Shown here piece by piece: positions 32,384 to 58,000 of a stretch of 64,000 nucleotides of DNA (position 1 is the first letter of the stretch; each line of letters begins with the position of its first letter). The position numbers were made by a program, and so were the translations under genes. This DNA comes from an uncultured Bacteroidota bacterium (lineage in GTDB: Bacteria > Bacteroidota > Bacteroidia > Chitinophagales > Chitinophagaceae). Location: NCBI GenBank assembly GCA_903905065.1, contig CAIVEW010000089.1:62001-126000 (forward strand), read 5' to 3'. The notes under the pieces are model-generated. The model was not told the DNA's origin, did no database searches, and saw only the letters and a program-made list of their open reading frames with translations.

Positions 32384-33781
32384 CTACCTATCTATTTCAT
32401 CATCGTCTCTGTCCAGGTCGATATCTGGCTTCGTGTCATTTTCATCGTCTAAATCATTCTCCCTGCCTTCCTCAATATCGCTATCTTCTTTAGTATCTCT
32501 GTTGTCATGTGCATCAAGATCCTTATCAGGTGATTGCGAAAGCCCGGTATCAGATTTAAAAGTGCTGCCGTTGCCTTTTGAGGAATCGTTCGCAAGAGAA
32601 GTAGAGAGGGTCGTATCTATGCCCTTTCCCTTTTCAAACTCACTGCTTCGGTTCAACATTTTTTGCTGATAATTCCTTTTCTCGTTGTCGTCCATCCCCT
32701 TTGTAACGTCCTCGTATGTACTCTGTTTTGACGCCTGTTCCTGTTTGTTCAGTTCTGCCAACCGGTTGCTCCGGCCACCGCGCAACTGCTGTATTTCCTT
32801 CAACTCCTTACCTTCCCTTTCTTTTAGCATTTCAAGATCATTTATCCTTTCTTTGAAACCTAAATTGCTAAATCTAAATTTGTGTTCCCCGTCAAACTTT
32901 ACACCCTGCAGTCTGCCATTTCTAAAATATGGCTCATGCCCATGAGTTTGCAACTGACTAAGAAAATGCTCTGTAGAGGTAGACTTTGAGTAAATCGTTT
33001 CGAGCAACCCAAGCAAAATATCCTTATCTACAGAGCGTTCGTGCGTTTTTATATTTTTTTCAACAGCCCTATTTATTTGCATATCCTTTGACCTACCATG
33101 TTCAGGTAAACTATGTACCAATTGGGGGTATTTTTCCTTCTGATACGCCTGCATGGCGAGTTTCTGTTCCTGAAATTGCTGCTTCGACACTCTATTTGCC
33201 AGACCGGTGCAGTATTGGGTGCCGCTTTGAACAAGATGGATATGAATATGCTCCTTATCCTGATGCACCGCCCCGAGGAACAGGCTGTTATCCCCTCTTA
33301 AGGACATATACTTCTGGGCAATGTCCTTTAGTATTCCTTCATTGATTTGCTTAGTATCAAGGTTGGAAAATGAGATAATGTGATGATAGGCTTTCACATT
33401 GTTGTTTCTGACATGCTGCCGCATCTTTTCATTTTCAGTAAATGCTTTTACATATCCCGCTATGCTCCGGGCTCGAATATTCTGCTTAATCAAAATCCCC
33501 GGTAATTTCTGTACAACCTCCTTTTTGTCTTGTTTTAAAATATGCTCTTGAATAAACTTAACCATGTTGCCATCTTTGGCGTGTTCCTTAAATTCTTTCA
33601 TCAGTGCGCTATCATTACGTTCAACCTCCAAATAGTACCGATCTTTTTCTGACAACTTAATCCCCGGAATATATGGTTGCTTATACGGCTTCTCCCTAAC
33701 CGGCTCTATCTTATGGTCGGCAAGCACATATTTTATAAGCTGGTCAACATTACCTTTCCGTGAGAGGCATTTAATTATCAC
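32384..33781 (-). CDS. relaxase / mobilization nuclease (MobB-like)
   Basis: A 465-residue HUH relaxase of the PF03432 type that would nick the element at oriT and lead the strand into the recipient. The N-terminus MIIKCLSRKGNVDQLIKYVL is typical. The metal-binding histidines lie in KEHIHIHLVQSG near residue 180, with an additional HHIISFSN segment. The C-terminal 150 residues are low-complexity and strongly acidic at the end (DIEEGRENDLDDENDTKPD). It starts with GTG, overlapping the stop of the MobC-like gene by 4 bases, so translation is coupled. Confidence 0.85.
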   Translation of the reverse strand: MIIKCLSRKGNVDQLIKYVLADHKIEPVREKPYKQPYIPGIKLSEKDRYYLEVERNDSALMKEFKEHAKDGNMVKFIQEHILKQDKKEVVQKLPGILIKQNIRARSIAGYVKAFTENEKMRQHVRNNNVKAYHHIISFSNLDTKQINEGILKDIAQKYMSLRGDNSLFLGAVHQDKEHIHIHLVQSGTQYCTGLANRVSKQQFQEQKLAMQAYQKEKYPQLVHSLPEHGRSKDMQINRAVEKNIKTHERSVDKDILLGLLETIYSKSTSTEHFLSQLQTHGHEPYFRNGRLQGVKFDGEHKFRFSNLGFKERINDLEMLKEREGKELKEIQQLRGGRSNRLAELNKQEQASKQSTYEDVTKGMDDNEKRNYQQKMLNRSSEFEKGKGIDTTLSTSLANDSSKGNGSTFKSDTGLSQSPDKDLDAHDNRDTKEDSDIEEGRENDLDDENDTKPDIDLDRDDDEIDR

Positions 33782-34260
33782 ACGACAGTTCCTTTAATTT
33801 CCTTCGGGTTGTACAGTTCTTCAATCACCTTCTGTTCCAATGCTGCCATCTGCGATAGTAGCGCCCGCCCTGCTTCAAAAGGCACTCTGTTTTCATCAAA
33901 CAACTTCTGAAGAGCGTTATAGTTCATCGCCAAAAGCTGCCGGATTGTTGCCAAAGCCAACGGATCGGGTGCGAGGTACTGCTTCCTGATATTGGCCAGG
34001 CAACTTTCCTTAATGAAGCGCGTCAGGCTGCGCTTATGCTTTTTTGTTGCTTGGGTCATCTCGGTAGCTTCTGATGCTGTAAGCGATATAGTTATCTGCT
34101 TTTGGGCTTTCCTGTGCCTTTGCCGCCATCTTGCCTTGTATTCGTTCCAATATGCTTTCCGGGCAACAGCAATATCCTGATCGCTCCCCGTTTCTAGCAC
34201 CTTTGTGCTGTGCAGGTAAGCGTAAACACCACTTTTCTTTTTGATAGCCCTTTGCGTCAT
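33778..34260 (-). CDS. MobC-like mobilization accessory protein
   Basis: A 160-residue basic protein. The central segment (ISLTASEATEMTQATKKHKRSLTRFIKESC) looks like a ribbon-helix-helix DNA-binding fold, as in MobC/relaxosome accessory proteins. A helical C-terminus (NYNALQKLFDENRVPFEAGRALLSQMAALEQKVIEELYN) follows. It overlaps by 4 bases with the coupling-protein gene upstream and with the relaxase gene downstream, so the three are a translationally coupled unit. A role in oriT recognition is inferred. Confidence 0.75.
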   Translation of the reverse strand: MTQRAIKKKSGVYAYLHSTKVLETGSDQDIAVARKAYWNEYKARWRQRHRKAQKQITISLTASEATEMTQATKKHKRSLTRFIKESCLANIRKQYLAPDPLALATIRQLLAMNYNALQKLFDENRVPFEAGRALLSQMAALEQKVIEELYNPKEIKGTVV

Positions 34261-35660
34261 TTAAATGGAATTAAAGGCGGTTCAATTATGTTCTTTACTT
34301 GCAATGGATGCGGCGGCAATGAAGACAGCTTCCGTAGCCAAAAGTTTTTGTAATAAGGAAGGGTCTTGCTACGCAGTGGGGCTGAGTTATTTATCAGAAT
34401 AATCGCCTCATTTGCCATCCGCAGCTCATCCACTGACATCAACTCCCGCACTCCTTTTTCTTTACCAGTTTCCTCGTCAATTACTGTGTATTTCCCAAGG
34501 ATATGCGACAGTTCGCGACATGTATGCAACGGCTGTCCAGGCAAATAAATCTGACATCCACAGTTTGTTTTTATTTGGTGTGCCTCGCTTTGCCCATACT
34601 TTGAAATGAGGGCTATTTCGTCTTGCATACACAACGTTAAAGATGAATTAAATTTTCTTATATTTGATATTGTGGTAGACATCGCTGGAAACTTCATTGT
34701 AGCGAATTCGTCTAACAATATGAAAATGCTGCGCTCATCTTTATCAGGTATTCTAGAAAGAATGAAATTGAAAAGACTTTGAAAAAACAAAGCTGACAAA
34801 GGCCGGAAATAAATCAAGTGCTGCAAAGGATTGCAAACGAAAATAGCTACCGGAAAATCAGGATTACGGAGCATGCCGAAATCGATAGTATGAGTTGCCG
34901 TTGTTTTGCATACTTCTTTATCGTTCCACAAATTCAAAGCCACTCTGGTCGAAATTATTATTGACTGCAAAGTTTTGTCACCAACAACAAGCATTGCCTT
35001 ATATGAACTAATTAGCTCAGGGTCAGTTTTTATAAACATTTGGTCAATTTCATGCTCTGTATCGGTTGCGAATTTCTCCAACAGTCTGAGCACGTTCTGC
35101 AGCGTCCGGTATTGTACGTCTGCATAGAATACGAGATACCGTATGAACAATGACAGCAGCATGATGCTACTTTGTTCCCAAAATATTTCCGTTTTCGATT
35201 CACCCATTGCGTTATGAATGATAAGCAGGGCGACCTTTTGAATGTCAGATATAGTTTTGCATTCAAGCAGAGGATTGAACGACTCTGAATGAGTAGCATC
35301 GGAAAAATCAATTCGTAAAATCAAGTAACCTTTTTGGGCTAGATAGCCGCTGGTTCGCTGATAAATCTCTCCTGAAACATCGTTGAAAACAACAGATGAT
35401 TTTCCCCGGGCGATAGACACCGCCGATGAAATAATGACGGTGCTGGACTTACCGCTTCCGGTTGGTCCGAAAAGGGCAATATTGGTCATGGATTGGCTCC
35501 TTGTGATGGCTTTATGTCCCGTTACCGCCACTCCGAGGTTTAACCTGGACAGATGTTCATAATCACTCCCGAAATGCGCGTTGTAGGTATGTACCGACTT
35601 TTTCCGGCCTCCAAGTATAATGATAACCGCAAGGCCTATGCTAATGACACCGTAAATCAT
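34257..35660 (-). CDS. type IV coupling protein (VirD4/TraG/TraD family)
   Basis: 467 residues from the ATG encoding MIYGVISIGLAVIIILGG, one N-terminal TM helix; the track start adds 22 residues. Walker A is ALFGPTGSGKSSTVIIS and Walker B is IFILLDEFATMKFP. It also has the VirD4-type NDVSGEIYQRTSGYLAQKG and CGCQIYLPGQP segments. It would dock the relaxase-DNA complex onto a secretion channel. The gene heads a coupled trio with mobC and relaxase. No pore genes are adjacent, so a partner T4SS must lie beyond the window or come from another element. Confidence 0.88.
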   Translation of the reverse strand: MIYGVISIGLAVIIILGGRKKSVHTYNAHFGSDYEHLSRLNLGVAVTGHKAITRSQSMTNIALFGPTGSGKSSTVIISSAVSIARGKSSVVFNDVSGEIYQRTSGYLAQKGYLILRIDFSDATHSESFNPLLECKTISDIQKVALLIIHNAMGESKTEIFWEQSSIMLLSLFIRYLVFYADVQYRTLQNVLRLLEKFATDTEHEIDQMFIKTDPELISSYKAMLVVGDKTLQSIIISTRVALNLWNDKEVCKTTATHTIDFGMLRNPDFPVAIFVCNPLQHLIYFRPLSALFFQSLFNFILSRIPDKDERSIFILLDEFATMKFPAMSTTISNIRKFNSSLTLCMQDEIALISKYGQSEAHQIKTNCGCQIYLPGQPLHTCRELSHILGKYTVIDEETGKEKGVRELMSVDELRMANEAIILINNSAPLRSKTLPYYKNFWLRKLSSLPPHPLQVKNIIEPPLIPFK

Positions 35661-35824
35661 TTTTTCACAAATTTTAAGATGAACTCGCTGAAGAAAACAC
35701 ATAGTTGACCAGTGCCTTTTAGGCACCAGCCAACTACTAGTAAAGTCAATTTCAGAACGGACAAAAAAAGCTGCGATAATAATTGCAGGACAACATTCCC
35801 ACCTTTTTCATGGCTCATAACAGT

Positions 35825-36571
35825 CTAAGATTTAGTGTTATCAAAAACTATATTTGCCCCAACATGTACCTCCGCACCGGCTTCCTCAAACAGCTTTTTG
35901 TAGAACACGGACATCAACGTGAAGTATTCATTATCCCTATCTGTTTTCGGCTTAAACGAAATCCATATGGTAAGCCCATGCAAATTGCCGGGCTTGCCAT
36001 ACTGAGACAATAATTCTTTTACTTTTTCAGGATGCTTTTTGATCAGGTTGCGATCACTGTCCCTATATATTGAAAAGACACTCGTGTTGTCGCAGCAGTC
36101 CGTGTAGGCAGTAACAGCTTTTACATCTGCTTTTATGGCGGAAATCCTATTTACTTCCTCAATGAAAGGAGCATAGATATTCGATTTCGGATAACCCTTA
36201 TTTTGACCGTTTACTGCATTAATCACAGTATCTACGTTCTGCTCAAACTTGTGTATTTCATTGTCCCTTTCGTCTGGGTTTGACAACAAAAAGAAACGAC
36301 CGGGCAATGCTAAAGTGCGGCTCTCGGTATACTTGAACTCTGAAAACGTGCGAACATTCAGTTGTACGCTCTGCCATTTGTGTTCGGCCAGATTAAGCGG
36401 CTGTAATACATCCATCCGGGTTGGACGTACTATGAACTGTTCCGTCTCATCTACAAGTACCGATTCCGCTACGCTACGGGAATATACCGGGAGGTATGAT
36501 GCATACGAATAGTATGCCCATCCCAATCCTATCAAAAGGATCGCTATTGAACTGTATCTTATTATTTTCAT
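35825..36571 (-). CDS. hypothetical membrane-anchored protein of the mobilization operon
   Basis: A 248-residue protein with an N-terminal TM/signal-anchor (IIRYSSIAILLIGLGWAYYSY). The exported part has no recognised motif but has well-formed strands (WQSVQLNVRTFSEFKYTESRTLALPGRFFLLSNP and GNLHGLTIWISFKPKT). It lies 12 bases downstream of the coiled-coil membrane protein gene and upstream of the coupling-protein gene. Its place in the operon suggests a role in transfer or at the donor envelope. I cannot name a family. Confidence 0.6.
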   Translation of the reverse strand: MKIIRYSSIAILLIGLGWAYYSYASYLPVYSRSVAESVLVDETEQFIVRPTRMDVLQPLNLAEHKWQSVQLNVRTFSEFKYTESRTLALPGRFFLLSNPDERDNEIHKFEQNVDTVINAVNGQNKGYPKSNIYAPFIEEVNRISAIKADVKAVTAYTDCCDNTSVFSIYRDSDRNLIKKHPEKVKELLSQYGKPGNLHGLTIWISFKPKTDRDNEYFTLMSVFYKKLFEEAGAEVHVGANIVFDNTKS

Positions 36572-36583
36572 AAAAGCAGTTTT

Positions 36584-37687
36584 TTAGTTTTTTAATTTAT
36601 TTTCCAATACGTGAACATCCTCTATAGTTTCATTTGCCAGCGGCAAATGAGGGTTCTTGAATGACTGCGGAAACAGTTTATCCGGGCGCTTGGCTACGTT
36701 TTCACTCTTGAACCACCCGACAGCTTCATCGAACATCATATTTACGGTCTCATGCAACTTCTCCTCAGCATGAATAAGACGAGTGCGAAGTTCCACGAAG
36801 AATTCGCGCTCCTTTATTAATATGTCCAGTTCCTGACGCAACCCTTTGCATTTTGCTTCGCTGGTCTTTATTTCCTTCTCTAGCCCCTCGGCTTTGCGCA
36901 TGTCATTGATTTGCGCCTTGGAAGGAAAGTTGAACAGAACGATGAGGCCAGTAGCGACAATAAACAGCATATTGATAGCTACGAATGTGAAAGGGTTCAT
37001 TACAATAAACGGAACATCCGTACCGGCTCCTTTGTGAATGAACCAATACCGGAGCAGCGCCAGGCAGCAGCTTAAAGCAAGAAAACCTGCTATTGCAATG
37101 ATGGTATACACCTTCCGCTTCTTCCTGTCATCAATCTCCTTAATGATCTGCACGGTCGTCTTAACGGCGGATATCTGCGCCAGCCCTATGACCAGACCAA
37201 GACAGAGAGCAATGAGCAGGATATCGCCCAGCTTAAGGAACGCGCTCACCGTCCACAGGCATTCACCGATGGCAAAGACGATGAGCAAGCTGCGCTGCTT
37301 CTTATATGACGCATGGTCGCCGTCAATGAAAATGCGCCCCCGGTCAACTGCAAGCCGATCTTTCCTGTCCGTCTCTGCCTGTATTTCCTTTTCTTTGTTC
37401 TCGATGTTCTGCCCGGCAGTCACAAGGTTCGCCGCTCCCAGTATTCTTTGCACACCACCCTGCAGCTTGATTGATACCTCTTTTTTGAGTTTGTTGTAAA
37501 AACCACGAATTGTGGTTAAGGTGGATTCAAATGACCCGTCCTGTTCGGCAGGAAAATTTTTGGAGGCATAGTTCCCTGCTTCAAAAAGAACTGTTTGCTT
37601 AAACTGTTCGTGCGCTTTTTTCAGGTAGTTTTCTACTGCTACTACCTCGCGCAGGAGAAAGCTCCAGTCTGTAAATTTGAATTTCAT
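36584..37687 (-). CDS. hypothetical coiled-coil multi-TM protein of the mobilization operon
   Basis: A 367-residue protein. An N-terminal amphipathic part (about 1-130) is followed by two pairs of TM helices (SLLIVFAIGECLWTVSAFLKLGDILLIALCLGLVIGLAQ and IIAIAGFLALSCCLALLRYW/FVAINMLFIVATGLIVLF). A coiled-coil (about 265-320, KEIKTSEAKCKGLRQELDILIKEREFF) and a short tail complete it. The layout of helices, membrane block and coiled-coil suggests a membrane scaffold. It is the first gene of the minus-strand transfer operon. Family unknown. Confidence 0.6.
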   Translation of the reverse strand: MKFKFTDWSFLLREVVAVENYLKKAHEQFKQTVLFEAGNYASKNFPAEQDGSFESTLTTIRGFYNKLKKEVSIKLQGGVQRILGAANLVTAGQNIENKEKEIQAETDRKDRLAVDRGRIFIDGDHASYKKQRSLLIVFAIGECLWTVSAFLKLGDILLIALCLGLVIGLAQISAVKTTVQIIKEIDDRKKRKVYTIIAIAGFLALSCCLALLRYWFIHKGAGTDVPFIVMNPFTFVAINMLFIVATGLIVLFNFPSKAQINDMRKAEGLEKEIKTSEAKCKGLRQELDILIKEREFFVELRTRLIHAEEKLHETVNMMFDEAVGWFKSENVAKRPDKLFPQSFKNPHLPLANETIEDVHVLENKLKN

Positions 37688-37791
37688 AAAAATTGATTTT
37701 TGGTTAAAAAAAATAATTAAGTGTTAGAATAATTGCATGATGACCGGTAAAAACTAAGGACAAGTCTTATCTGACTTGCCCTTGGCGAACT

Positions 37792-38591: not shown

Positions 38592-39620
38592 CTACAATGT
38601 GTGACTTATACTAGCGGTAGCTTCTTCTTTAGAAAGGAATTGAATAAGACTGTCTTCCTTTAATTTATTAAACTGGTACCGGTCAGCCAGTATTTTACCT
38701 AAATCCGTTCTAGGCTTAGTATATATACCAGTGAGGTGTTTGTGGTTATAAAGAAGATAAAAACATTCTTTAAATAGATCATCGAATAAGATCGCACGAC
38801 TTTTGAAATGCTCTTTGGAAGACCAGACAGTTGATACATACAAAGCGTGTGCTGAATTAATATTGTTGACAATGTCATTATTTTCAAAACATTCTGCACT
38901 TTGCATCTTTCCACTCTCAAGTAAAGCAACGAGATTCTTTGCAATTGGGTATAGGATATAAAATCCTACCAATTTATTCGTTATTGTGTCTCGGAGGCCT
39001 CTAAAGATATTTTTGTTATTTTCAAATCTCACCTTTACTTTTTCTAAATCAAACTCAATATATGCATCAAGCTCGGGGTACTGTAGTTTAAGATGCTCAA
39101 TTTCCTCCCAAGTGCACTGCGTAATTTTAAGGCGATTTTTAGTGTCCTCAATTGTTGATTGCAAATGACGAAGTTTTCTATTTTTAGATTCAAAATAACT
39201 CTGTAATTGTTTAAAATTGGCTAGGTCATCAGGCGATTCCGGGATGAAGCCATTTACAACACACTCTATATAGGGATGGCTAAATAAGTAGTAGCAAAAA
39301 AGATTGACCAGTTCTTTCGTGAGTTTTCTCACCGGATCTGATTTTCCAAATAGAACATATAAGTTGTCTTTCCCGCAGCCATGGTTTTCCCCCTTCTTTT
39401 GAAAATAGTCATACAGATCCGGATTTAAATCTTCCAGTCCGTTATGTATGAACCAAACAATTGATTCGCTTAGGTTTTTTATACTAAATCTACTTGTGGT
39501 TACTACACTATATTCTACCTTTGTTTTTATGCGCTCACGGCGTAATTCCATTTCCTCATACTTTGGAATAAGAGCTGATTCAATTTCGTCGCGGGAAATA
39601 CTGAATTTAGTTGTTGTCAT
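38592..39620 (-). CDS. hypothetical protein, 342 aa
   Basis: A soluble, charged protein from the ATG encoding MTTTKFSISRDEIESALIPKY; the track ORF is 13 residues longer. It is predicted to be mostly helical. A conserved-looking centre is FCYYLFSHPYIECVVNGFIPESPDDLANFK, followed by a long helix (YFESKNRKLRHLQSTIEDTKNRL). The region before the stop is helical too (RAILFDDLFKECFYLLYNHKHLTGIY). I looked for RteC, replication and phage-defence signatures and recognised none. Two direct repeats 60 bases upstream suggest it is a regulated gene. Confidence 0.55.
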   Translation of the reverse strand: MTTTKFSISRDEIESALIPKYEEMELRRERIKTKVEYSVVTTSRFSIKNLSESIVWFIHNGLEDLNPDLYDYFQKKGENHGCGKDNLYVLFGKSDPVRKLTKELVNLFCYYLFSHPYIECVVNGFIPESPDDLANFKQLQSYFESKNRKLRHLQSTIEDTKNRLKITQCTWEEIEHLKLQYPELDAYIEFDLEKVKVRFENNKNIFRGLRDTITNKLVGFYILYPIAKNLVALLESGKMQSAECFENNDIVNNINSAHALYVSTVWSSKEHFKSRAILFDDLFKECFYLLYNHKHLTGIYTKPRTDLGKILADRYQFNKLKEDSLIQFLSKEEATASISHTL

Positions 39621-39679
39621 AATAAAAAGTTTAGACCTAAAATTAGGTTTAAAATTCACTATGACAAAATATTATATAT

Positions 39680-39710
39680 TTTGCGACAAGTATTGTTTTC
39701 TTTGCGACAA
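39680..39710. promoter_or_regulatory. two direct repeats TTTGCGACAA, 21 bp apart
   Basis: Identical 10-mers spaced by exactly two helical turns upstream of the 342-residue protein gene. On its coding strand they read TTGTCGCAAA. The spacing suggests a protein bound on one face of the DNA. Confidence 0.5.
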
Positions 39711-39754
39711 ACTTTCTAAAACTTTTGATCTGATAAAGGGCTTTTGTTTCTTGT

Positions 39755-39844
39755 TCAACAACACCCATATAACCCCGCCTTGTATGCACTTCTTGTTCGT
39801 TGGCTCAAACGTTTGCCGCCATCTTCTTTCAGATTCCCCCTCAT
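39755..39844 (-). CDS. possible 29-residue small ORF
   Basis: ATG preceded by a G-run (AAGGGGGGGCTTC), encoding a basic peptide (MRGNLKEDGGKRLSQRTRSA and on) that ends in two cysteines. It lies between the 10-codon minigene terminator and the 342-residue protein gene. Composition is the only support. Confidence 0.2.
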   Translation of the reverse strand: MRGNLKEDGGKRLSQRTRSAYKAGLYGCC

Positions 39845-39936
39845 GAAGCCCCCCCTTGCTCTTGGCTAATACTCCCTACTGTAAAGCGTATTCAGAACTT
39901 TCACCCTATAGCTTATATCCATGCCGGACACACATA

Positions 39937-39966
39937 AAAAGCCAGCTTAATTTCAAGCTGGCTTTT
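39937..39966 (-). terminator. strong terminator of the 10-codon minigene
   Basis: The perfect stem AAAAGCCAGCTT/AAGCTGGCTTTT has a 6-base loop and T-runs on both strands. It lies 26 bases past the minigene stop. Confidence 0.85.
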
Positions 39967-39991
39967 ATACTTCGATTATAGCGAACATGGT

Positions 39992-40024
39992 TTAACCCCA
40001 ACCGCCATCTTTATTTCTAGACAT
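39992..40024 (-). CDS. 10-codon minigene with strong Shine-Dalgarno
   Basis: The reading frame MSRNKDGGWG is preceded at ideal spacing by AAGGGAGGTGAAT, an almost perfect match to the 16S anti-SD. That is rare in this window, where genes start from AT-rich leaders without SD sites. It has its own promoter-like sequence (TTGACA-N17-TATAGT) and its own strong terminator, giving an RNA of about 100 nt. The peptide has no signal sequence. It could be a signalling or leader peptide, or the ORF may be incidental to a small RNA. Not recognised. Confidence 0.5.
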   Translation of the reverse strand: MSRNKDGGWG

Positions 40025-40044
40025 ATTCACCTCCCTTTTTGTTA

Positions 40045-40073
40045 ACTATATACAGGTACAAGTCTATTGTCAA
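40045..40073 (-). promoter_or_regulatory. sigma70-like promoter of the minigene
   Basis: TTGACA, exactly 17 bases, then TATAGT on the minus strand. This matches the proteobacterial/Firmicute consensus rather than the Bacteroidota -33/-7 type. Predicted transcription would begin near 40,038, just ahead of the Shine-Dalgarno. Confidence 0.5.
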
Positions 40074-40236
40074 AGCGAATATATTTTATAATTTTAAATA
40101 AATTTTGAAGATTGATACAGAGAAAACCCTCCATGTCGGACACAATATGTCCAATTTACAGTTCTATTCTATCTTCCGAATTAGGCTGTTATACTAGCCC
40201 CAACTTCCGTCTGCAATTTTGCGCATATTACCGATT

Positions 40237-41202
40237 TTATACTATTTTAACATTAATATAATAACCTTGTTCTGGGTATATAATGCCTTTACAATAAAAT
40301 CTAGTCGAGTGCTTTGTCGGTTGTTCTGTAATAAAGTTATCTAAAGTTCCGGACTTATTCAACTTTATTTTTAATAAGTCCTTAGGATAGTGAACATCGA
40401 CTCTAAGTCCATTATACATTCGTCCAGCCTTAAAATATATTATATTATCGAACCTAACATTATATTTTTTTATTTCCTATCTTTCAACCAAATATTTGTC
40501 GCTCCCACTCAATGGCGTTTTAAATCTGTGAATAATCGCTTTTTCACCAATATCTATTGACTTATCCTCTACAATTTTAGTGCCATCAATAAGAACGTTG
40601 TTCACTTTAACGTATGCAGATGAGTAATGAACGTCGCTTTGATCATCATTCACGTAAGGCATATAGTTTCCAAATTCAAAGAAAAAGGTCTCGTTTTTAT
40701 CATAGGGAATAGCCGTTAGTTTTATCGTCTGGGTGACTTTAATAAAGCCTAATGCGGCATCCTCTACTTCAATATCTATAAGGTGCTCTACGTCGTCGTA
40801 ATACATAACATGATTAGTAGGCAAATATTTCTCTGAAATATCTCTTAGCAGCTTGTCATTAATATTGGGAAATTTATTTTTACAGAGCTCTTGCGATACC
40901 TTACCCCAGTACATTGGCAGATCACTTCGATTGCTTAAATACTTAGGCTCGAAAATAATATTTGTGAGCTCTTCTCTGAATATACGAGTGAATTGATATG
41001 ACTTCACTAAAAAAGTAAAGACCGCTGAGCTGATTAGAATTTTACCCAAACCGTTGCATAATTCTTTTGAGGTCGGAGATTGAAATTCTCCAAATACCGA
41101 ATAGACAAAAAGAGCCATTCCTGTAATTAAAATTAGGAACGGAAGTGCTTTGATCAAACCAGTACCAGTATTAATTAAATTTCTTTCGATGAAAGAATCC
41201 AT
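40237..41202 (-). pseudogene. two-TM membrane protein gene split by an in-frame amber codon
   Basis: The upstream part (241 residues to TAG at 40477-40479) starts MDSFIERNLINTGTGLIKAL. It has two TM helices (LPFLILITGMALFVYSVFG and GKILISSAVFTFLVKSY), then a conserved-looking soluble domain with beta strands (FFFEFGNYMPYVNDDQSDVHYSSAYVKV). The same frame stays open after TAG for about 80 codons (EIKKYNVRFDNIIYFKAGRM...PEQGYYINVKIV) with matching composition; the track lists its end as a separate 60-residue ORF. One base (CAG to TAG) would restore a protein of about 320 residues. It is either a recent nonsense mutation, a sequencing error or a readthrough site. Family unknown. Confidence 0.65.
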
Positions 41203-41299: not shown

Positions 41300-42060
41300 T
41301 AACGGTTAGTACTGTTGCTTCACATTCCCCCAACTTGCTTAAAGATAGGAAAAAACAATTAGCCTGCTTCGCAGCAGGCTAATGACTGCAAACTCCGCTG
41401 CGCTCTACATGCAGCCCGCCCGCAGGGTAAATGGTATTCGGCATTCTTGCTCGGCAAACAGTGCGCCATGCCTACAACGGCCACATGCCCTGAATCGCTT
41501 TCCTTGAAAGGAAGCAGGGCAAGAGATCGTTGTTCCTGTACGGCCTCGATACCCGATTGCATCTGGGAATCGAGCCTGCAGGACCGGCAGGATCACACTC
41601 TTTGCGGCTCGCTGCGAAAACCTCATAGCGGCTCCCAGGTCTGTAGCTCATGCTCCTCGTTCATTTCAAGCACACCATCCGGCACGCTTTCATTCACTCG
41701 GGCTGGCTCCATCCCTTTCGCCGCTTTCGTATGTGCTCGCCATGCGAGCCACAGGCTCCGTTCCGATTTTCACTTCACAAACCTACGCGTATTTGCATGC
41801 CAACGCAAAAATCTGCACTGTGCGACCTGGCGCTGTCGCGCTTCTCAGGATCGCCCGAGCCTGTGGCACTCGCACACTCTATTCGCTGCGCTCATTCCGT
41901 TTACAGGCGAGCCGCTTCTTGATTGCCCGCAATGGAATATTGCATTCAATCGGGGCTGACGCACGGGCCGCAGGCGCTTTTACCATGCCTGACACACTCA
42001 AGCGCAATGGTATCCTCTCAAGGATATTTAAAGTATTTTCATTGCAATGACTAAATTTAT
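41300..42060. other. GC-rich gene-free island
   Basis: About 700 bases clearly richer in GC than the AT-rich genes around it. It starts with a perfect hairpin (TTAGCCTGCT/AGCAGGCTAA, 41359-41382). Short ORFs exist in several frames on both strands (e.g. 41447-41959), but their peptides are rich in Cys/His/Ser/Arg as expected from random GC-rich frames, so I call none. Words such as TCGCTGCG recur. It may hold a structured RNA, an origin or an oriT; nothing decides between them. Confidence 0.4.
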
Positions 42061-49064: not shown

Positions 49065-52000
49065 TTAATGTGCCACTACCAACCTTTGTACTTGTAGCGC
49101 CTTGCCGTCTCCCTCCATGCGGATGATGTAAACTCCAGGCATCCAGTTCGCCGTATTTACCATCCAGCTTCCGCTCACTGTATTTGGCATGGTATAGTCT
49201 ATCTTCCTGCCCATAGCATCATAAATAGAGATGCTCTGGTCACTGTTTCCATCAGCGCCATAGTTATAAGAGATCGTCACCATGCTTGACGTTGGATTCG
49301 GGAAGACAAGCATCGCCGTGCTGACGTTTGCTTGCATGCCTGTGCTATTATTCGTCTTCCCTGTATCAGCGGGTGAATGTCCATTCCGTTCTGATACCGA
49401 CCATGGGCAGTTCGGTAAAGGTACCCTCCGTTTGTAGTAACATCTTCTGCCATTGCTGGTGTCGGTAAATATTACCTGTATAGTAACACTGTCCGGCGGC
49501 GGCACTGCAAGTGTTGTAAAAGTCAGCGTCATGGGCGGCTGGACTCCATATGAAGCAAGAATACCAGAGAACGGATCAATAGGACCAATGTCAGTACCTA
49601 GCGTATATATATATCCTCCGCCTGGGCTATACATTGTAATCGTCATGCTGTAGGTTGCAGGGTTAGTTGTGTCGCAGACAATCGCCACATGGAGCGAATC
49701 GCCCTGACACGTATCGCAATGCGCAACCGTAACGTCCATAGTATCGGATATTTTCGCGCACAATCCGTTGTTTAAATTCCACTGATATTCACCACCGCTA
49801 TCTACTACATACGACCCCATGAGACTTGATGTGCCGGACTCCGCTACTATATCATTGCGCAGCCAGGCCCAATAGCTAAACGTAACATCCGGCGGGCCAT
49901 ATAAGGTGATCGGCAACTGTTCCTCACAAAGCGAATAGCAGCCAGTTGGCAGATATGGAAAATACGTATCCGGTGCAAGCGGCACATAAGTATCCGAGGA
50001 ACTAATACAGCCGTACAGATCGGTAAACCATACACGATATGGCCCGCCAGAATAGATATCATCCACAGAATCGGTTGCACCATTGCTCCAATTGTAAAGA
50101 CCGACCCAGGGCGCTATTTCGGATGCCTTCAGTTCCAAATGGTAGGTGTTGCAATCTACCACGGTAACTGGCGATGCTATTACTGGGTTCGGCGGTAGCG
50201 GGTAAATGTTTATGCTGTCTATAGCTGATGTGTCATAGCAGGAAGTGCCTGAAGGTGTATCTGTGATTCCCAAAACCAGCATATACTGGTAGATCGAATC
50301 CGCAGAAAGGCCTGCGTCCACAATGTAGGGCAAAGAGCTTTCAGAATCGATACCACGCCACCATGCATAGGAAACGCCAGCACCTGCATAGCCAGACAGG
50401 TTCACTGTTTGTCCGTAGCAATAGTTTTGCAGGCCATAGATTTGTGCGTTCGGCGGTTGAATGATTTTTACGTATTGTGTGGGATAGAACGTTTGCTGAC
50501 ATTTATAAGAATCAATTACAGTCACCCAATACGAGCCTGACTGATAAACACTGTCAGCGCTCCCAACGGTTCCATTGCTCCATAGATAGATAAATGGCGC
50601 TGTTCCACTTGTTGTTGGAAATATAGCAAAATTTGTGACAAACGGCGCTGCATTAGAACAAACTACACCCCCTCCACCGTAAACACCCGTTAAAGTATTG
50701 TGATAAATTTGTACTGCTTCCGTTGTATCTGCCGTGCAGCCTATGGTATCAGTAACGGTTAGCAACACTGAAAAAGTATGCGGGTTGGTAGTGAATGTTG
50801 GCGACCAACTATATGTTCGCTGGGGATCCTGCAATAGATTAGAAGAGCTATCACCAAAGCTCCAATCGTAAGCAACAATGCCCGCTGTACTAGTGGCAGT
50901 GAATCTTATCGGCACATCCTCGCAGATCGGAGAAAGCGTATCAACAAACGCAGCATGAGGTCTGGCCGGTACAACAATGGGCAATGTAAACGTGCAACTG
51001 AATGTGCCGCCCGGCCGTGTGCCGGAGACTGTTTCGGTAATGTTGTAAGAGCCAATCGGTAGAGCTACGGTGAGGTTTGTCCCGCCGCCTAGTATTGTTC
51101 CGCTGTTATCCCAAACTATGGTGTCTATATGCCACCACGGCACATAGGCAGAATAATCAGTGAGCAGCAGGCTGTCATCTACACCTCCGGCGCATTTCAG
51201 CCGGTATCTGAAATTGGCAATAATACCTACCGTGTCCTGCTTGGTCGTATCTGCAATGCAGACACCGAAAGTCTTGGTAAATTCAAATGTATAAATGCCT
51301 GGTAAACCATAGGTGACTACGGCTATTGCACCGCCACCGGAAGTAGTAAAGCTCGTCGGAACTGTCGCCGGTCCCCATTCGGGACCGGTACCGCCTGTTG
51401 TGCCAGAACCATCCAGAGTTATTGAGTTGCAAATATCCGATGAAGTAACGATGAACGGAGTATCGCAATGAGGGTGAATGTGGAAGCCTCCCGTGTCGCA
51501 CATGGCATGGTTGATATTTACCACCTCGGAAACCCCCGAACAGCCATTGCTTGCGGTGACGGTAAAATAATAATTCTGAGGGCCGCCGGATGCAACATAT
51601 GTGGTATCCGTGGCGCCTGATATCGCCCCCGAACCGTTGTACCATTGGTAATCCAACCCAGTTACGTTATTCGTCACCGTGCCCACTAAGAGTGTGGTCA
51701 AACTGTCGCAACCCAGTATCTCGCCAGAAACACTGGTGTATGCTACCGGTCCTGGCAGAATTGGAATAGCTACCGAGCCACTGCCCGAGAGTGGGCAAGG
51801 CGCAGAGGAATCAGGTATTACTGTTACCCTAACGGTATAGATAATATTGCCGGTTGTCGTATTTAGCGGATACCTGTGCCCTGGCGATACGTTTGTAGTG
51901 GTCGTAGTTGTTGGTGTGCCGTCTCCAAAATCCCAAGTATAACTAATGCCTCCCGTATTCGAGGTAAACACCACCGGAGAATCAGGACATGCTGGCGATG

Positions 52001-55000
52001 GAACGGCAACAATGGTAACTCCCGGCGACGGCTGAACTACCACCGTGAGCGTATCCGATTTTACACTGTCGCATTTATGCACGGTCACGATGATCTTTGC
52101 AGTTGTGGCTGCTGTGACATTGTTCCACAAGATGGTATCAGCGGGCGCATGAGCACCGCGCACCACACTGCCTAAGGTATTCGGAGAGATAATCCAGTCA
52201 TATACTTCGCCGCGAGTGTAGTTGCAAGTATATCCTCTTTTTGAGTTGGCGCACGGCGTCGTATCTCCGGTGATATTTAGCTTGATGCTGTCAGTAGTAA
52301 TATTCACAGTATAGGCAGCGCCCAAACAATATGGCGGGAAAGTGTTCACATGGCTCACCAGCAGCTTCTTTGTGCCGGTGCTCGTCCACGTCACCGTCAC
52401 CGTATTGCCGACCGTTGTTGGGGAGATAATTCCACCAATGGCCTGCCAGGAATATACTGTGCCCGGTATATCGTTCCATGCCTTATAGTTATACAAACGC
52501 CCGAGGCATACGGTGTCAGGGCCGATAACGCTGTCAATCGCGCCCGGTGAACCGAGCACGTCAATGGTCAGTGGATTGGCGCAGAAGCCGCCAGTGGCCG
52601 AAAGCAGGTACGCACCCGGTGTTCCGAAAGTATGGGTGAATGAGCCAGAGCTGCTACCTGTCCCAATAACGCTGCCGGTAAGCACGCTTGATAAAACCCA
52701 GTTGCCGGATGCCCCGCCTGTGAGGTTGTATGTTTCGGTATAACCCTGGCATACCGTGGTTTGCCCGGTTATGGTATCTGGCGGAACTACAGACACTTTG
52801 AACAGCGCATTTCCGCCACACAGTTTTATCCTGTTTTGATACCATCCGTGTATCTCGTATGTGCCGAGGGAATCAAATTGCAGTATAACGGTATGGTCAT
52901 CACGGTAGCCAACGACTGCGCCGGGGTATCCGATGACTCCCCACATATATTGCGTTGCCGCCCAAAGCGGCAGGCTGTATTCATACTGTTCGCCTGCACA
53001 GACCACCGCAGGACCGGTAATGACGGGACTTTGCAATATCACGGGTATCTTTATTGTCGTGGTGTCGGAGCATACGCCGCTGCATCCGGGAGTGGCAAGG
53101 CTCACATAGCCAAAACCATCGGAACCGACATCGTTCCACTTCACAGTGATAGACGCAGTGCCTGAACCGGTTACGATAGTTCCGCCGATCACCGACCAGT
53201 TGTACGTTCCACAAGTAGCTGCCGTACTGTAAGTAGCGGTTTCGCTATCGCACACAATAGCTGCACATTGTATTTTCGGGGCCGGGTCGCTTGATACATT
53301 CAACACTTCGCGCATAGTGTCCGAACAGTTGCAGGCGTTCTTTACGACAAGTGTTACCGTATACGTGCCCGCTGCTGTATACGTATGCGATGGATCAGTT
53401 ATGGCTGTTCCTGTGCCGTCGCCGAAGTTCCATATCCATGACACTATTGGGGATGAAGAATCTGCCGTAGAAAAATCAGTAAATAAAATGTTGTCCGCAA
53501 GGCAATAGCTGGTACTGCCTGTGAAGAAATGCGCATGAGGCTTAGCTATTACTTTTATGCAAGCGATTGTTTCGGCAATGCAATGACTGGCAGTATCATA
53601 GAGTGTGATGGAGGCCGTAGTTCCAAGTGTGGGCCACATCACATCTATACTGTCGCCATAATTTGCGACGATGATACCCCCAACAACGCTCCATGTGAAC
53701 ATGCTGCCGCCGACGCCATTGCCATAATAACGCACAATGGAGCTGTCACATACAAGGATGCATCCCGTATCGGGTAGGATAGTTCCCGGTCCCACAAGAT
53801 CCCCGCCTGTTGCCAGTGTCTGGCAGGCGACGATAAAGTTGGTGGTGATGTACGGGATTTCATTAACGACGATAGCTGTGGTCGCAGTGCCTGTACCACA
53901 TAACGTAGTAGCGGTGTATGTAATCGTTACCGAGCCGGAGGCGATGCCCGTAACTATACCCGTCAAAAAACCTACCGTTGCAATGGCCGCATCACTACTG
54001 GTCCATGTGCCGCCGGTCATTCCATCGCTGAGTGTTATTGTGGAACCGGAGCATACGCCCAATGGGCCGGTAATAGGAAGCAGCGTATTATCATACACTT
54101 TCACTACTCTCGTTACGACTGATGTACCGCAACTATTGACTACGGAATAACTCAAAGTTGCGGTGCCCACAGCAACTCCTGTGGCTACTCCAGATGCAGA
54201 ACCAATGGTAACAATGCCGGTATTCCCGCTACTCCATACCCCACCACTAACAGAATCACTGAATGGAGCGGTAGACCCGACACATAGGGTATCAGTTCCT
54301 GAGATCGGTGGGACAACCGGCAAAGAATCAACAGAAATCGTGTAGGTGACAAAACAGCCTGTGCCTATCGTATAGGTGACTATGGCCGTACCTGTATGCA
54401 GCCCGGTGATCGTGCCGCTGGAACCGTCCACATTAATGGTGGTGCTACCGCTACTCCATGTGCCGCCAGCCGTAGAATCGCTGAGGATTATTCTTGCCAG
54501 CATGCAGACTGAATCTATGCCGTGTATAGGCAATGGCAACGGATTGACAGTAATTACTGCGCCTATATAACAACCCGTCGGAAGTATATATACGATGGTG
54601 TCACCGCCAGGGCTTACTCCCGTTACTGTACCCGAAACGGAGTCTATGGTCGCAATACCTGTGTTGAGGCTTATCCATGTACCGCCCGGGGAGTCATCCG
54701 ATAGCGCTGTTGTGTAGCTAACACAAACGGACAGCGCTCCGGAAATCGCAGATGGTAACGGGTTTACCGTAACAACAGTGGCAACACCGCATCCTGTCGG
54801 AAGTGTGTAACTAATAGTTGTGGTGCCGGAGGTTATACTTGTTACATGCCCCGTAGAGGAGCCGATCGTGGCAACCGAAATGTTATGGCTAGACCACGTA
54901 CCACCAGAGGTGGCATCAGTCAAATTTATCGTGTCGCCAGCGCACAACGGTGCATTTCCCGTAATTATTGCGGGGACGGGGTTTACGGTAACAGGGATCG

Positions 55001-58000
55001 GCAGCATATCAATGCATCCCGGTCCAACTGAAACGGTATAAACCAACGTGGCAGTACCGGCTCCAACGAAAACGATGTCGCCATCAGTAAGTCCGATTGT
55101 TACCACGCTCGTATCGGTACTGGAAAAGCCGCCTCCAGTCGGCGTAACCGTAACTACCACGGTCCCACCCACACAAATATCGAAAGGATAAGGCGGGTCG
55201 GTGGTAATAAAGAACGATGGCATCGGTATAACAGTTACTATCATCGATGCAGTCGCTGATCCGCAAGCATTGAAAGCCGTGTAAGTTACAGTAAGCGTAC
55301 CTGTTGTTACGCTCGTTAGCGTTGTTGCAGAAGTTGTATCCGATGACAGCGTACCGCTTCCCGTACCGGAGACGTCTGTCCATAAAACGGATGTCACGCC
55401 ACCCGGGCCGCTACTAAGACCTGGAGACCCGGTCAAGTTAATGCTGCATCCCAGATGTACAGAATCTAGCCCCAGTATTGTTGCCACCGAGGGTGTTGTT
55501 ATGACGGTAACAACCGTAGTCGTAACACTTGTACAAAAGGTCGGAGCAATACCTGTTGTTGTATAGCTAATAACAGACGTGCCAGCGTGCATTCCGGTTA
55601 CAAGGCCGGTAGATAGTCCAACGGATGCATTTGTGTCACTGCTTGTCCAGGTACCCCCTGATACGGTTTCAGTCAAAGTGGTAGTAGCACCAACGCATAA
55701 AATTGTCGTTCCCGCAATAACACCTGCATTCGGGTGTGGATTTACGGTCACAACATACGTTCTGTCACAGTCAGAGGGAGCAGCCGCAACGTAATGTATA
55801 GTTGCAGTTCCCGCGACAACTCCAGCTACTACGCCGGTCGTGAGTCCAACACTTGCTGTCCCAGGAGAACCGCTGTACCAAGTGCCACCAGTGATGGCAT
55901 CGGCTAGAGTAGTGGTTGATCCAACGCAAACAGCGGATGTACCTGTAATAGCCGCAGACGGATATACGGTAACCGTTGTCGTGATTGAGCAGGCACCTGG
56001 CGAAGTAATATAGCTGATGACTGCGGTTCCTGCACTTATCCCAGTCACAACCCCAGATGTCGAAATAGTTGCAACGCCTGGAAGGGCAGTACTCCATGTG
56101 CCTCCCGTTACATCATCAGTTAATGTAGTTGTTGACCCCTGACATACTGTTTTTGTCCCGTTAATTTCCCCGGGAGATCGAGTGACTGATACGGTATCTG
56201 TCGTTGTCGACGATCCACAAGAGTTTGTAGCGACGCATGAAAATATTTCTATTCCCGAACTAAAACCATAAGTGGCTGCAACAGCAGTACTGCCTGAGTC
56301 AGACAATATAAAACCTACAATACCGGAAGAGAACCAACCAAATGACGTGGCCCCAGTGCCGGTAATTCCTAAATCAAATCCAACACCCGAACAAACCACG
56401 GAGGGGCCTGAAATCAAGCCGACTGTTGGTGTTGAGTTAACAGTTACACATTTCGATGTTGTTACCGGATAGTAGCAAGGGCCATCTAAAGTGGGCGTAG
56501 TTATGCTGGTAATATTAAGACACAGCGTGCCTACTGTAGTTATCAAGCTCCCAGACACCGTAACTCCTATATGTCCTGACGAAGGTATGGTATCCGATCC
56601 TGTTGTCGGCGATCCGGATGGATAGGTTATGGTATAATGGACCACATCTAAATATGTACCGTTTACGACAAAGGTAAAATCAGCGCCTACGCAAGGGTTC
56701 GCGGTAGTCGTAGTAAGGGCTGCCGGCGTAGGTTTAGGGCATACGGCTACGTCTCCGGTGGCTGTTGTGCCACTAGTGCGATATAGTGTAATATTATCAA
56801 TGGAAATACTCTTGTCCATCACAAGTTCTGCATCCTCTATACATATAAAGGTTGTGCCAGAGTATCCGCTTGTAAAATCGAATGCTACTTGATACCAATT
56901 AGGATCACATCCGGGATAAATTCCCGCTCCATAGGTTACATTGATTGTGGTACCGCCACCAAGGCCATTCTCCAATGTTGATCCGCTATGCCCGGCAGCG
57001 CCAATTAATGTGGCAAATTCCGGATATCCAATATGACCAAGAACATCTGCGTCCAAAGGTCGCCAGTATCGATACCAAAAAGAAAAATGGTAGGTTGCTC
57101 CGGGACATAAATCAACAGTCTGACCCCAAAAATAATGCGCATAGTCTCCGGCGGTCCCATGAGCCGACCAAAAATTAAGGCACACATCCCCCGGAGGACT
57201 GCCATCTTCAGATATATATAATGGACATTCCCTACCCGGGTCCATTCCATACGAATTGTTCATGACAATATGGTCAGGACCTTCATCCCCCGCCGAGTGC
57301 GTCGAGCTACAAATGTTTCCATATAGAGTTTCCATACACGGAAATCTATTGCAGATGTCACCTGGCGAGAAGTCCTGATAAAATTCACCGTTGTTTATAA
57401 GATTAGGCCCTTGACAAGTTGCAGTAAGGGTATATGTCTCGCAAATGGAAGCGACCCCAACAGAAAACATAACTCCCGTAGGGTCACCAGTCCCGCTGGA
57501 CGGTGTTGGAAGTGGCAAGCCGGTTGGCGCGGCCCAGCTATATGCGATAGGTACAAACCCGGCAGGATAGGTAACGTGTACTGTGTATGTGTAGGTACTA
57601 CCTGGGCACAGGTTGTCGCCGGAGGGAACTGTAAAGGTCGTATTCGTGCACGGATCATAAATTGGTGGGCACAGAGTTCCAGTAATTGTAGAGGAAGTTG
57701 TTCGTTCACTGCTGTGTGTTCCAAATGTTGCAAAGCAACCGTCAGACAATGTATAGGTGATTGTTACCGCGCCATCGCTAACACCTGTTACATTTCCTGC
57801 CAGGCTAGGCGTAGATGTGTCTGCCGTTGCAGTGGCAACGGTTGTATCGCTACTACTCCAAATGCCTCCGCCAATTAAATTGATGAAGTAATACGGAATG
57901 CCTATAAAAACCGGATCGCCTCCTTCAATTGGATTTGGGGACAAGTTAACTGTTACAGTCGCTGTGGCCGGTGAGCAACCTCCTTCGAGTACATAAGTTA

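Follow-up and report, generated by a model that had tools for sequence, protein, structure and literature searches.

A ten-codon gene belongs to a family of micropeptides encoded behind genes for predicted two-helix membrane proteins in Bacteroidota mobile elements and prophages

Introduction

On the minus strand of a 64,000-nucleotide stretch of DNA from an uncultured Bacteroidota bacterium (hereafter called the window), a frame of only ten codons is enclosed by what appear to be a promoter, a Shine-Dalgarno (SD) sequence and a terminator of its own. What such a minigene, here designated minigene B, might encode, and to which of its neighbours it belongs, is the question raised by this locus. 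An earlier reading made from the sequence alone had proposed a self-contained unit with foreign-looking expression signals, specifying a secreted or intracellular signalling peptide, a leader peptide or a short regulatory RNA. Here we describe minigene B as a member of a hitherto undescribed family of 10–17 residue peptides, the genes of which sit just behind two-helix membrane-protein genes in Bacteroidota mobile elements and prophages. We are highly confident that this two-gene module and its peptide are real, and discuss more tentatively what the peptide may do.

Results

Minigene B is a complete expression unit

All parts of the self-contained minigene were confirmed on the minus strand between positions 40073 and 39937, exactly where they had first been reported. 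The promoter TTGACA-N17-TATAGT (40045–40073, with TTGACA at 40073–40068 and TATAGT at 40050–40045) agrees with the consensus hexamers at 11 of 12 positions, with a spacer of 17 nt, and is followed by the extended SD sequence AAGGGAGGTGAAT (40025–40037), by micropeptide gene B itself (39992–40024; ATG at 40024, ten codons encoding MSRNKDGGWG and a TAA stop codon ending at 39992) and by an intrinsic terminator (39937–39966), in which a hairpin with a perfect 12-bp stem and a 6-nt loop is followed by the T tract TTTTTAT. When pairing energies were calculated with duplexfold against a Bacteroidota-type 16S tail, this SD was the strongest among the 2,411 ATGs of the window (−17.8 kcal/mol); the host's own 16S end was not found in the draft assembly. 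The same bases that form the promoter can also be read as a Bacteroidota-type promoter, TTTG (40074–40071)-N20-TATAGTTA, with 8 of 10 matches, so that the description of the signals as foreign-looking is only partly right: the SD is indeed exceptional for Bacteroidota, but the window promoter is ambiguous and the relatives described below use perfect Bacteroidota promoters without any SD.

The promoter hexamers alone are unremarkable, as 39 promoter-like sites were counted in the window versus 33.6 in shuffled sequences. The complete cassette of promoter, SD, short open reading frame (ORF) and hairpin was found once in the window and never in 60 dinucleotide shuffles, and this combination is not a product of chance. 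The predicted transcript of 107 nt folds with a z-score of −4.1, chiefly due to the terminator.

A similar peptide is encoded directly behind a membrane-protein gene

A second ten-codon frame, micropeptide gene A (40194–40226, minus strand), encodes the similar peptide MRKIADGSWG and ends with TAG. It is located 200 nt upstream of minigene B, starts 10 nt past the stop codon of a membrane-protein gene and shows no recognizable promoter or terminator of its own. Among the 502 short ORFs of the window, frame A is by far the best match to MSRNKDGGWG (BLOSUM score 26, the next being 12), and its score was reached in only 1 of 3,000 local and 2 of 300 whole-window shuffles. Units A and B align collinearly from the leader to the hairpin region, with a modest, scoring-dependent p of 0.002–0.09 at the DNA level.

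The membrane-protein gene occupies 40237–41202 (minus strand; ATG at 41202, 321 codons plus stop). An in-frame TAG at 40479–40477 interrupts it, and a mechanical reading therefore returns two ORFs of 258 and 60 amino acids. As the 60-aa ORF, which frame A follows, is in frame with the preceding 258-aa ORF, and as an intact homologue of 314 aa (L024) spans both halves, the two represent one gene. Further homologues comprised L040 (identical in sequence to L024), L041, L042, L050 and L057, and, from whole genomes, L044/L047, L045 and L046; L044/L047 is probably a single gene split across two contigs, and L046, in which the match is confined to the C-terminal part, is a weak relative. Upstream of the membrane-protein gene, a GC-rich stretch without a convincing gene (41383–42050) precedes a strong hairpin (41383–41358).

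Hydropathy analysis detected two hydrophobic segments near the N-terminus in all six members tested. An AlphaFold2 model based on a five-sequence alignment consisted of N-terminal helices, the transmembrane (TM) helices being of low to moderate confidence, and a 13-strand beta domain (pLDDT about 80–94); the protein is thus predicted to possess two TM helices and a cytosolic beta domain. The top fold matches were M1 aminopeptidases (E about 1e-7, TM-score about 0.3–0.4), the part matched presumably being their N-terminal beta domain. No family of Pfam, NCBIfam, PADLOC or PHROG fitted above cutoff, and profile searches found no PDB relative. L042 adjoins a phage integrase gene, and the neighbours of L041 include phage amidase and holin genes and a HEPN-domain gene. 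Such surroundings are typical of accessory and defence genes. The HEPN (pEK499_p136) gene, at L041:2209–2718 on the minus strand, adjoins the membrane protein–micropeptide pair in this prophage.

The micropeptide is conserved as a peptide and recurs with the membrane-protein gene

A frame of 10–17 codons was present just behind the gene in all seven distinct homologues with confidently readable ends. The encoded peptides are MDKILYGDTEG (L024/L040), MKTILYGDTEG (L041), MRAIRILQDDTQG (L042), MATNYGNNHVSLDDTWV (L045, for which an alternative ATG two codons earlier is possible), MITNLDINHG (L047), MAEKKINGDMEV (L050) and MRATINDTVIG (L057), and the weak relative L046 carries the candidate peptide MYLTTRELIRDEEYI, the reading of which is ambiguous. 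Their conserved part is the C-terminus, described by D-[TSGMI]-x(1-2)-[GV] and exemplified by ILYGDTEG, QDDTQG, NDTVIG and NGDMEV. Frames of this type occurred in 0.7–4.6% of the shuffles of the downstream sequence, depending on the locus, and behind three of about 152 control genes from outside the family, rates that are only indicative since the motif was defined after the peptides had been seen.

The sequence-only reading had suggested comparing conservation of the peptide with that of the RNA, and the outcome speaks for the peptide. In their last eight codons, L040 and L041 diverge at four positions, all four of them synonymous; the stop codons differ as well, and the 40 nt past the stop show no conservation. 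Among the family members in general, the stretch from the peptide stop codon to the terminator is not conserved, and it is the frame that recurs.

Searches for the peptide itself failed, because these peptides diverge quickly, and the way into the family led through the homologues of the upstream protein. Plasmid and phage records contained no direct nucleotide relative of the minigene, with weak short matches only, and the pattern ATG-N12-GAYGGNDSNTGGGGNTRR found nothing outside the source genome in 396 Bacteroidota genomes. Three viral-contig matches to the peptide pattern and five GTDB matches to an SD version of the pattern were rejected as chance. Likewise, no counterpart of such peptides and no micropeptide antitoxins were found in the freely accessible literature, and neither half of the module has a named family in the libraries and freely accessible literature searched.

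Several relatives transcribe the peptide from a Bacteroidota promoter

In L040, L041 and L042, a perfect promoter of the type TTTG-N19/20-TANNTTTG lies 27–35 nt upstream of the peptide ATG. Such a 10/10 score was obtained at three of 162 gene ends, which were exactly these three, and at none of about 160 controls. L040 and L041 are related and their promoters are therefore not fully independent; that of L042 is placed elsewhere, behind the stop codon of the membrane-protein gene. The promoter preceding the L057 peptide scores 9/10, that of L045 is poor and none could be recognized before the L050 peptide. Terminators were computed after the peptide in L040, L041, L042, L045, L057 and window unit B, a GC-rich hairpin was spotted by eye after that of L050, and no clear terminator was seen in L047. 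In several members, promoter and terminator bound RNAs of about 100–180 nt. The relatives lack an SD, minigene B being the exception.

Taken together, the pairing with the membrane-protein gene, the purely synonymous changes and the separate promoters indicate that the peptide is the conserved product and is made from its own transcript. As far as sequence comparison reaches, the pairing, the conservation at the peptide level and, in several relatives, the separate promoter are established.

A group IIC-type intron fragment follows the terminator

Right behind the terminator of minigene B begins, with GTGTGTCC, a 5′ fragment of a group IIC-type intron, about 200 nt long (39734–39933, minus strand), and Rfam model RF02001 matched at 39850–39692 with 57.5 bits. 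Parts of the region 39943–39734 are mostly 75–93% identical to sequence in several congeneric genomes, one of which contains up to at least five intron-like copies, and nearly all of these copies start directly behind different terminator-like hairpins. Group IIC introns are known to target DNA stem-loops (PMC10190682), and the terminator of the minigene has accordingly served as the target of such an intron. The match to the relatives ends at 39734, and no complete intron was found here, with neither a domain V hit nor a reverse-transcriptase match in the next gene. That the minigene is itself part of a group II intron was rejected, since intron copies elsewhere follow other hairpins and other upstream sequence. 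Behind micropeptide A, the sequence TGTGTCCGACATGGA (approximately 40143–40129, minus strand) shares 14 of 15 positions with TGTGTCCGGCATGGA, the opening bases of the intron fragment at 39932, and its position within unit A corresponds to that of the start of the intron fragment.

Further downstream lies a gene for a protein of 355 aa (38592–39659, minus strand), the family of which was not recognized. In a congener, a related element encodes a TPR protein of at least 500 aa (L039:8887–10386), and the N-terminal part of this protein resembles residues 48–177 of the 355-aa protein (31% identity). A single-sequence AlphaFold model of the 355-aa protein was poor (pLDDT 34). Two copies of TTGTCGCAAA at 39675–39720 (minus strand), upstream of this gene, are possibly an operator. 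The idea that the 355-aa gene encodes a regulator to which the peptides bind was abandoned, since the peptide family does not track that gene. A mobilization block with a TraG/VirD4-type coupling protein occupies 32384–37687 (minus strand) and is shared, with about 72% DNA identity over 35810–37711, by the related element G017:C186, the cargo of which differs. The window also contains a very large ORF of 3,737 codons (49065–60278, minus strand).

Discussion

The findings can be combined in a model of a two-gene module, in which a putative membrane effector, predicted to combine a pair of TM helices with a cytosolic beta-sheet domain, is partnered by a cytosolic peptide of 10–17 residues. The peptide gene, which encodes a conserved acidic C-terminus (D-T/S/G-x-G/V), has its own promoter in several relatives and is usually closed by a terminator. 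The C-terminus of the peptide would bind the beta domain and keep the membrane protein inactive, in the manner of an antitoxin or a safety catch; an infection that halts the synthesis of the short-lived peptide would release the effector, and the membrane would be disabled as in abortive infection. We favour this role of the micropeptide as an antitoxin-like inhibitor with slightly less than even confidence, and infer binding, inhibition, toxicity and defence alike. Transcription of the small partner from a promoter of its own suits an inhibitor that is needed in excess. The intracellular peptide proposed by the sequence-only reading persists here in the form of a ligand of a membrane protein, and a signal between cells is not favoured.

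In the window, the effector gene is broken and both peptide frames are open, an arrangement that is in keeping with an inhibitor but is no proof of one. Of the two copies of the peptide gene, A follows the effector gene, whereas B is equipped with a promoter and a very strong SD; given the stop codon in the effector and the two copies, the local module has probably decayed while the peptide was kept. More specifically, but with less confidence, an unfolded peptide of 10–17 residues acting via its C-terminus may be the dedicated inhibitory ligand of the two-TM effector, with loss of the constantly remade peptide at phage takeover as the trigger. In Bacteroidota, SDs of such strength typify rpsU mRNAs, which ribosomes without bS21 translate preferentially (PMC9976891). 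Extending this by inference to minigene B, it is conceivable, though rather doubtful, that the rpsU-like extended SD of the window peptide ties its synthesis to bS21-lacking ribosomes.

The same pairing and the same conservation of the C-terminus would be expected if the micropeptide were instead an activator or a sensed cue that turns on the membrane protein or signals the state of translation, the membrane protein then acting on the membrane or excluding superinfecting phage, and the prophage surroundings near lysis and integrase genes would agree with such a role. However, a perfect and constitutive-looking peptide promoter would leave such a system permanently on, and the window, in which the larger gene has been lost but the peptides are kept, fits an inhibitor better. 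We therefore regard activation as unlikely.

A short regulatory RNA reaching from within the 3′ end of the membrane gene to the terminator, with the frame secondary or the RNA of dual function, could account for the RNAs delimited by promoter and terminator in several members and for the folding z-score of the window RNA. It is nevertheless improbable, given that the fold signal is largely that of the terminator, that Rfam yielded no match to such an RNA, and that the codons of L040 and L041 are kept, with synonymous changes only in the last eight, but the RNA further downstream shows no conservation; a function of the RNA alone, as had been envisaged, is not supported.

Genes this small can encode exported or modified peptides, as illustrated by mccA of microcin C, which specifies the heptapeptide MRTGNAN (PMC6495379), and a microcin C-like precursor or a pheromone could have the membrane protein as its exporter, receptor or immunity protein. 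We give this explanation little credence, as the peptides lack a leader or signal sequence, which also speaks against the secreted signal suggested at the outset, no modifying enzyme or transporter recurs beside the homologues, and two TM helices with a beta domain are unlike an exporter.

The gene order of promoter, short ORF, terminator and gene, and a weak match to a Thr-leader-like model (18.8 bits versus a family cutoff of 55), would be in line with attenuation, in which peptide B and the terminator control the downstream 355-aa gene (38592–39659). This is very improbable, because the peptide family tracks the upstream and not the downstream gene, no alternative hairpin competes with the terminator, the frame lacks a run of regulatory codons and the gene arrangement at this place differs in a related element; the peptide, for which the sequence-only reading had considered a leader function, belongs with the gene upstream and is followed by a terminator. 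Finally, although hexamer pairs singly occur near chance and short ORFs are common, a fortuitous succession of promoter-, SD- and ORF-like strings before a real terminator has hardly any probability left in view of the absence of cassettes from 60 shuffles, the twin peptide with its rarely reached score and the recurrence of the frame in all confidently read homologues.

Should the inhibitor model be true, the peptides would be among the shortest protein antitoxins known, and, being very small and easily synthesized, they would lend themselves to studying the hold of a disordered peptide on a membrane effector and to direct testing with synthetic peptide. Genes of 10–17 codons fall below the usual annotation cutoffs and such partners are consequently missed; a conserved micropeptide partner of a nameless membrane family illustrates how the second gene of a two-gene module can escape notice.

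Comparison with known systems

In its layout, with two TM helices ahead of a cytosolic beta-rich domain, the module resembles the Panoptes system OptSE (mCpol with OptE/2TM-beta) and Cap15 of CBASS. OptE/2TM-beta is toxic unless its partner gene supplies a small inhibitory ligand (PMC12657218, PMC12657230), whereas the partner here is a gene for a peptide of 10–17 aa. Neither an mCpol nor a CD-NTase was recognized, by eye and in partial Pfam scans, beside L040, L041, L042, L045, L050, L057 or the window gene. Cap15 was not among the 50 best fold matches shown, which are mainly M1 aminopeptidases. The beta domain thus resembles the N-terminal domain of M1 aminopeptidases and not the Cap15/OptE barrel, and the likeness to Panoptes is one of layout only; membership in the S-2TM-beta/Cap15/OptE group was rejected, since the protein has the N-terminal pair of TM helices and the beta domain but matches the Cap15-type barrel in neither sequence nor fold.

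Minigene B shares an exceptionally strong SD with the rpsU mRNAs of Bacteroidota (PMC9976891), but the gene is a different one, and no SD precedes the remaining peptide genes of the family. With mccA of microcin C, a 7-aa precursor (PMC6495379), it has in common a very short gene (7–20 codons) as an independent unit; in contrast, the peptide ends in Gly or Val instead of Asn, it is partnered by a membrane protein, and no MccB/ThiF-like adenylating enzyme was recognized among the neighbours by eye and in partial Pfam scans. An attenuation leader peptide was rejected on account of the conservation with the upstream gene and the lack of a hairpin rivalling the terminator.

Like a type II toxin–antitoxin system, the module is a two-gene unit on mobile elements in which a small adjacent partner is conserved together with a large gene. 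It differs in that the partner, with 10–17 residues, lacks the length needed for folding or for DNA binding, in that the peptide gene lies downstream with its own promoter, and in that the toxicity of the effector is putative. By analogy, the module would work like a toxin–antitoxin pair with an extremely short antitoxin.
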